Shown here: positions 38,109-38,666 of the stretch, piece after piece
How the letters are laid out: each line of letters opens with the position of its first letter
Numbering within the stretch: position 1 is the first letter of the stretch
Assembly: GCA_018266845.1 (NCBI GenBank)
Contig: JAFDZO010000024.1
Span: 1 to 64,000 of the forward strand
Length of the DNA: 64,000 nucleotides
From: Bacteroidota bacterium
GTDB lineage: Bacteria > Bacteroidota > Ignavibacteria > Tepidaquicellales > Tepidaquicellaceae
Reading direction: 5' to 3'
Program-made: the position numbers and the translations under genes
The notes under the pieces: generated by a model
The model's input: the letters and a program-made list of their open reading frames with translations, nothing else
What the model was told of the DNA's origin: nothing
Database searches by the model: none

Positions 38109-38177
38109 ACTGCAAAATAGTAAACTAAATTGAAAAAAATAATTTATAAATTTTTCCCTATGTTTCCCGGCGCGGGG

Positions 38178-38373
38178 CAGGGCTGTTAAGTTCTGATGTT
38201 CACTTAAATATATTCTCCCACATTCTCCTTACCAAACTCTGTTTGGTAAGGTATTATGGGGCGAAACTCCGTTTCGCATCCAAAAGCGGAACAGAGTTCC
38301 GCTCACTCTTTCCGTCCCAAACAGGAGTTTGGGACGGAGTTCTTCTAATTTTCTTAAGAACTTAACAGCCCTG
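38178..38373. mobile_element. MITE-like 196-bp element with ISAs1-type ends
   Basis: The left end CAGGGCTGTTAAGTTCT (38178-38194) and the right end 38357-38373 are perfect 17-bp inverted repeats. A 10-bp direct repeat, CGGCGCGGGG, flanks it at 38168-38177 and 38374-38383. Ends starting CAGGG and 8-10 bp target duplications are known for the ISAs1 family, so it is probably a non-autonomous derivative of such an insertion sequence. Inside are four short hairpins with 7- to 11-bp arms (38227, 38261, 38286, 38312) and no credible protein. It sits between the hydroxylase gene and the efflux operon. Confidence 0.85.
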
Positions 38374-38666
38374 CGGCGCGGGGAAGCGCTAAGTTTTGCG
38401 AAACTTAATTTCTCTTTCCAAGTCTGGAAAGAATGTGTAAAAAATTCTTGTTTCTCCCTGCGAAACAGGGTTTTGAAGATACATTCCGTCTCAAACAGGG
38501 TTTGGGACGGAGTATTTTAAAAAATCAAAAACGATATTTACATGTAAGTAGAGACGTAAAATATTGCGTCTCTACGATATGACAATCTGACAGAATACAA
38601 ACTTGTCAACATTTTTAGATTCCTGAGAAACTAAAAAATATTCAAATGTAGGAACAGCTTATGATT
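38374..38666. repeat. Cluster of further palindromes right of the MITE
   Basis: After the right flank come short hairpins: 38391-38406 (AAGTTT arms), 38413-38432 (TCTTTCCA arms), 38486-38510 (a decayed copy of the CCGTCCCAAA stem) and 38548-38575 (GTAGAGACG arms). Most lack T-runs. No gene with a credible start is seen. Confidence 0.72.

Follow-up and report, generated by a model that had tools for sequence, protein, structure and literature searches.

The 196-bp element at positions 38178–38373 of the window, the whole 64,000-nucleotide stretch of DNA analysed here, is very probably an ISAs1-type MITE that is non-autonomous and encloses a REPIN-like cassette of a REP-associated tyrosine transposase (RAYT). 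The same set of hairpins that fills the element also brackets a RAYT gene in this genome, which leads us to read the cargo as REPIN-like and the whole as an ISAs1-type MITE that has a REP cassette for its interior. Both halves are of known kinds, and it is their packaging together that is unusual.

Structure and copies of the element

The left terminal inverted repeat (TIR), CAGGGCTGTTAAGTTCT, and the right one are exact reverse complements and form a perfect inverted repeat of 17 bp, and the two flanks carry the identical 10 bp CGGCGCGGGG. The 64-kb window holds 28 pairs of inverted 12-mers with a spacing of 60–600 bp, and only at this one do the flanks form an exact 10-bp direct repeat. The target of the window element with its surroundings, TTTCCCGGCGCGGGGAA, is a CCC..GGG dyad. 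No open reading frame of 80 aa or more was found inside the 196 bp, which hold four hairpins (H1–H4) in the order outer, inner, inner', outer'. Length, perfect repeats, identical flanks and number of hairpins are exactly as the original prediction had given them. It had further described four palindromes of different stem sequence; the stems do differ, but they are not arbitrary, because all follow a common loop and stem rule, AAC-TC(C)NG-GTT or its reverse complement. Specifically, the loops are of the TC(C)NG type in H1 and H2 and of the reverse complement in H3 and H4. Folded as single-stranded DNA, 216 bp reach −61.1 kcal/mol (z = −11.1). The features of the locus are as follows.

38168–38177: left 10-bp target-site duplication (TSD), CGGCGCGGGG
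38178–38194, plus strand: left TIR, CAGGGCTGTTAAGTTCT, assigned to the ISAs1 type of end
38195–38222: left MITE arm, restricted to the four copies of the type A interior
38223–38343: four-hairpin REP cassette, best read as REPIN-like
38227–38251: H1, outer REP hairpin, CCTTACCAAACTCTGTTTGGTAAGG
38261–38277: H2, inner REP hairpin, GCGAAACTCCGTTTCGC
38286–38302: H3, inner REP hairpin, GCGGAACAGAGTTCCGC, loop orientation opposite
38311–38338: H4, outer REP hairpin, TCCGTCCCAAACAGGAGTTTGGGACGGA, loop orientation opposite
38344–38356: right MITE arm
38357–38373, minus strand: right TIR
38374–38383: right 10-bp TSD, CGGCGCGGGG
38485–38511: another REP hairpin of this kind, close to but outside the element, TCCGTCTCAAACAGGGTTTGGGACGGA

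A palindrome, GTAGAGACGTAA..TTGCGTCTCTAC, lies at 38548–38575 of the window; a related sequence, GTAGAGACGCAATACATTGCGTCTCTAC, occurs at many sites and sometimes adjoins CAGGG ends (for example at C41:77590 and C41:146346).

The search for further copies with these ends, which the original prediction had named as its check, was positive. The genome (3.53 Mb in 46 contigs) contains three further copies of the element, 97–99% identical and at unrelated sites. Two of them, A2 on contig C11 and A4 on contig C41, have perfect 10-bp duplications of their own, CCCTCAAGGG and CCCTTGAGGG, respectively; a clear TSD is absent from the near-identical copy at C40:24362 and from the short element at C40:19210. 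Separate 10-bp duplications mark copies that comprise both cassette and ends, which shows that the composite, cassette already included, moved as one unit. The boundaries of seven full-length elements with such ends were established (196, 196, 196, 197, 267, 108 and 110 bp); five of these elements are flanked by a perfect 10-bp TSD and four by duplications or sites of the CCCC(TTGA/TCAA)GGGG type. The 10-bp core of these sites, CCC(TTGA/TCAA)GGG, occurs four times in a 464-kb sample composed of 400 kb of genome stretches and the 64-kb window. At least four distinct interiors lie behind CAGGGCTGTTAAGTTC-type ends in this genome.

Type A: the window element and the three further copies
Type B: copies at contig ends
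Type C, two outer hairpins only: contigs C20, C2, C36 and C41
Single-hairpin elements with a AAGCTCCGGCTT-type core: C11:9196, C41:34922 and C40:19210 (decayed)

Contigs C34, C15, C23 and C42 start inside another multi-copy type, and the true copy number is therefore probably higher. The copy at G000:C41:29739-29939 has a longer first hairpin, CCCATATTCTCCTTACCAAACTCTGTTTGGTAAGGAGAATATGGG, which looks like the result of copying one arm onto the other. A genome-wide search for CCCAAAC preceded by CAGGGCTGTTAAGTT returned four records, none of which has this architecture.

Assignment of the ends to the ISAs1 family

Taken with the length of the duplication, the end sequence makes the assignment of these ends to the ISAs1 type well supported. 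As to the ISAs1 element expected to share them, this genome has no match to PF13808 (DDE_Tnp_1_assoc) or NF033564, but ISAs1 transposase fragments stand beside the same ends in G074, a genome of the same class. No ISAs1 transposase being found in this genome, mobilisation here is something that we infer, and the enzyme moving these ends would be of the ISAs1 family. The assembly is fragmented and several of its contigs begin inside copies, so that a multicopy IS could be missing from it.

G074 contains 14 ends of this sequence, which it shares with the window element over the first 13–15 bp, and its transposase fragments adjoin ends that have CAGGGCTGTTAAG(T) in common. The N-terminal fragments, which score 71 bits against PF13808 and 31.6 bits (partial) against NF033564, begin approximately 50 bp inside CAGGGCTGTTAAGTGTTC ends, with one instance at a CAGGGCTGCCAAG end instead, and the C-terminal fragments lie approximately 80–100 bp from the ends CAGGGCTGTTAAGTTA. 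Additionally, complete ISAs1 elements in two other members of the class start with CAGGGCAAACGCAT (CAGGGC) and have 10-bp flanking repeats, one of them imperfect. A further class member, G171, has 29 exact ends, with MITEs mostly of 145–159 bp. On contig C14 of G074, one ISAs1-type MITE is apparently nested within another. The copies, the 10-bp duplications and the transposase fragments of G074 bear out what had been predicted from the window alone, namely a MITE with ISAs1-type ends and hairpin cargo.

In this genome, a hairpin lies no more than 90 bp inside 20 of 23 CAGGGCTGTTAAGTTC-type ends, as against 105 of 4000 random windows (2.6%), the 23 ends not being independent, since some belong together as the ends of a single element or as copies of the same type. 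Hairpins of another sequence occur at 10 of 13 ends in G171, and a hairpin inside 100 bp at one of 11 ends in G074; the idea that every ISAs1-type MITE with such ends has hairpins in it is mostly true of the former genome and false of the latter.

The element resembles MITEs and IS of the ISAs1 family in its ends starting with CAGGGC, its 17-bp TIR, its 10-bp duplication and its lack of coding capacity, and ends of the same sequence adjoin ISAs1 transposase fragments within the class. Unlike those elements, it has no autonomous partner that could be found in this genome, and its interior consists of RAYT REP hairpins rather than IS remnants.

The hairpin cassette and RAYT genes

Without CAGGG ends, the cassette is repeated in this genome and also occurs in the congener G001. 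A stand-alone cassette of this kind, 90% identical to that of the window, lies at G000:C46:72894-73017. Across 13 aligned cassettes, 99% of cells are paired, stem pairs changed on both sides number 13 versus 5.2 in shuffles, and the inner stem AAC/GTT is nearly fixed. The two loop orientations face each other with two hairpins per side, which makes the unit an inverted pair of REPs. REP-like hairpins number approximately 50 in the 464-kb sample, versus one in 160 kb of shuffled sequence.

Four Y1 transposase matches were found in this genome, three of which were scored against NF047646 (REP-associated tyrosine transposase; cut-off 80 bits): two pass, with 116 and 105 bits, and the third reaches 79.5 bits. 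The RAYT P0001 on contig C7, which scores 116 bits, sits between TTCCGTCCCAAACTCCTGTTTGGGACGGAA and AGCGAAACTCTGTTTCGCT on one side and TTTGTCGAAACAGGAGTTTCGACAAA and CATTCCCAAACAGGAGTTTGGGAATG on the other, an arrangement in which the gene occupies the middle of the cassette. Its orthologue in the congener G001, 80% identical, lies between two cassettes. Among 22 RAYT loci, drawn from this genome and related ones, all have a hairpin within 130 bp and 14 have hairpins on both sides; hairpin density is 7.7 per kb near these loci versus 0.23 per kb farther off, and the type of hairpin varies with the RAYT. The cargo of the window element is best read from these comparisons as a REPIN-like non-autonomous RAYT element from which the gene would be missing.

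Other loci show RAYT or Y1 genes amid hairpins of various kinds. At G010:C100:22684-26199, a RAYT gene lies within a hairpin array (GCGTTCCCAATCGGGAGATTGGGAACGA) of approximately 17 near-identical members, several of which are spaced at approximately 55 bp. The RAYT at G000:C15:76361-79588 lies in a repeat-rich tract of GTTGGTC..GACCAAC hairpins that includes a 35-base N gap in the assembly, and the fourth Y1 transposase match, at G000:C33:34957-38151 (61.6 bits, open frame of 97 aa), is near hairpins of another type, AATATCCACGCCTTAAAAGGCGTGGATATT.

The literal hairpin sequences were not found in the literature; REPs and REPINs of RAYTs are already known (PMC2817692, PMC3116915, PMC3733652). 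With REPINs and REP/BIME units (PMC3116915, PMC2817692), the cassette shares inverted hairpin pairs, compensatory stem changes and dispersal in the genome, and each type brackets its own REP-associated tyrosine transposase gene. It departs from them in having four hairpins where known units have two, in showing its strongest conservation in the loop and inner stem (AAC-TCNG-GTT), and in sitting inside a DDE-type MITE.

Origin and movement of the composite

We propose that an ISAs1-family DDE transposase acting in trans, none of which was found in the assembly, would recognise the CAGGGCTGTTAAGTTC ends and move the entire unit to palindromes of the form CCC-N4-GGG, where 10 bp would be duplicated. 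The cassette would be a deletion derivative of an element arranged outer, inner, RAYT, inner', outer', once spread by a Y1 (HUH) RAYT transposase acting on single-stranded hairpins. It may have come to lie between ISAs1 ends either by RAYT insertion into MITEs or by ISAs1 ends settling on either side of REP clusters, and the element would thereafter have moved as one piece. We regard these two origins as about equally probable.

That MITEs existed first and that REPIN cassettes were then inserted into them by a RAYT is a serious possibility, if one that falls somewhat short of even chances. The homology between the window element and the stand-alone copy on contig C46 ends at sharp boundaries (38223–38347), as would suit an inserted cassette, and GTAG-15 REP dimers that were inserted into long palindromes in A. 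variabilis (PMC3733652) offer a published parallel; the same MITE arms without a cassette, however, were not found in this genome.

Alternatively, pairs of ends may have settled around palindrome-rich intergenic DNA, the outer pair then mobilising whatever lay between, so that the presence of REPs would be incidental to the choice of target. On this view, ISAs1-type elements would target short palindromes of the CCC..GGG kind, and end pairs would therefore often settle round palindrome-rich DNA; the target dyads seen here are of the CCC..GGG kind. The 267-bp element on contig C20 has, besides its outer pair, a third end inside it at 142 bp, and its 10-bp TSD fits the outer pair only, which favours enclosure for this type. 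Additionally, the arms next to the TIR are not alike between types, so that the types have little in common except the TIR. Yet the targets (CCCCTTGAGGGG) differ from the REP hairpins themselves, and the same kind of ends in G074 enclose a hairpin near the end in only the one case among 11. We consider such capture a plausible account, though we would lean against it.

A broader proposal, that ISAs1-type ends have turned into regular vehicles for RAYT hairpin cassettes in this lineage and that the chimera is open to two unrelated transposases, a DDE enzyme working on its double-stranded ends and a HUH enzyme working on its single-stranded hairpins, seems unlikely. REPINs are usually described as moved by the RAYT alone, and such movement has proved difficult to observe. 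Carriage of a REP cassette between the ends of a DDE transposon, the 10-bp duplications being intact, shows that REPs have a second route of spread, and the four-hairpin unit and its RAYT-containing counterpart form a candidate pair of non-autonomous and autonomous elements far from Pseudomonas and Escherichia. REPs have been described as targets into which insertion sequences insert (Tobes and Pareja 2006, PMC1525189). Among published links between such elements, those cases and the REP dimers within palindromes (PMC3733652) come closest; they likewise join an IS-type element physically to REPs, whereas here the REP cassette lies as cargo within the MITE and was moved together with the MITE ends. 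A short literature search covering few subscription journals did not turn up any account of an ISAs1-type MITE with a RAYT cassette as its cargo.

It is very improbable that the hairpins are kept for a host function, as terminator, mRNA stabiliser or protein-binding site. The element does lie approximately 70 bp upstream of the start of a fatty acid hydroxylase gene, in a 560-bp gap, and REPs fill such roles in some hosts according to the literature. However, the same composite occurs at three unrelated sites, and no Rfam family reaches its gathering score at the element, a sub-threshold mir-1892 match falling outside it. The congener, too, is without the element upstream of the orthologous gene; its own upstream gene differs, so that the empty-site comparison which had been suggested demonstrates absence of the element at this locus rather than a clean empty site.

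Y1 transposases are not expected to produce 10-bp duplications. The least probable explanation, that the CAGGG inverted repeats are unrelated to ISAs1 and are a RAYT element's own terminal repeats, has in its favour the strong association of ends and REPs in this genome and the long TIRs that can flank RAYT genes ('TIRtron', PMC3733652), but the stretches inspected show no CAGGG ends near the RAYT genes of this genome, and the candidate is disfavoured by the 10-bp duplications, which fit a DDE transposase, and by the occurrence of the ends with ISAs1 transposase in G074.
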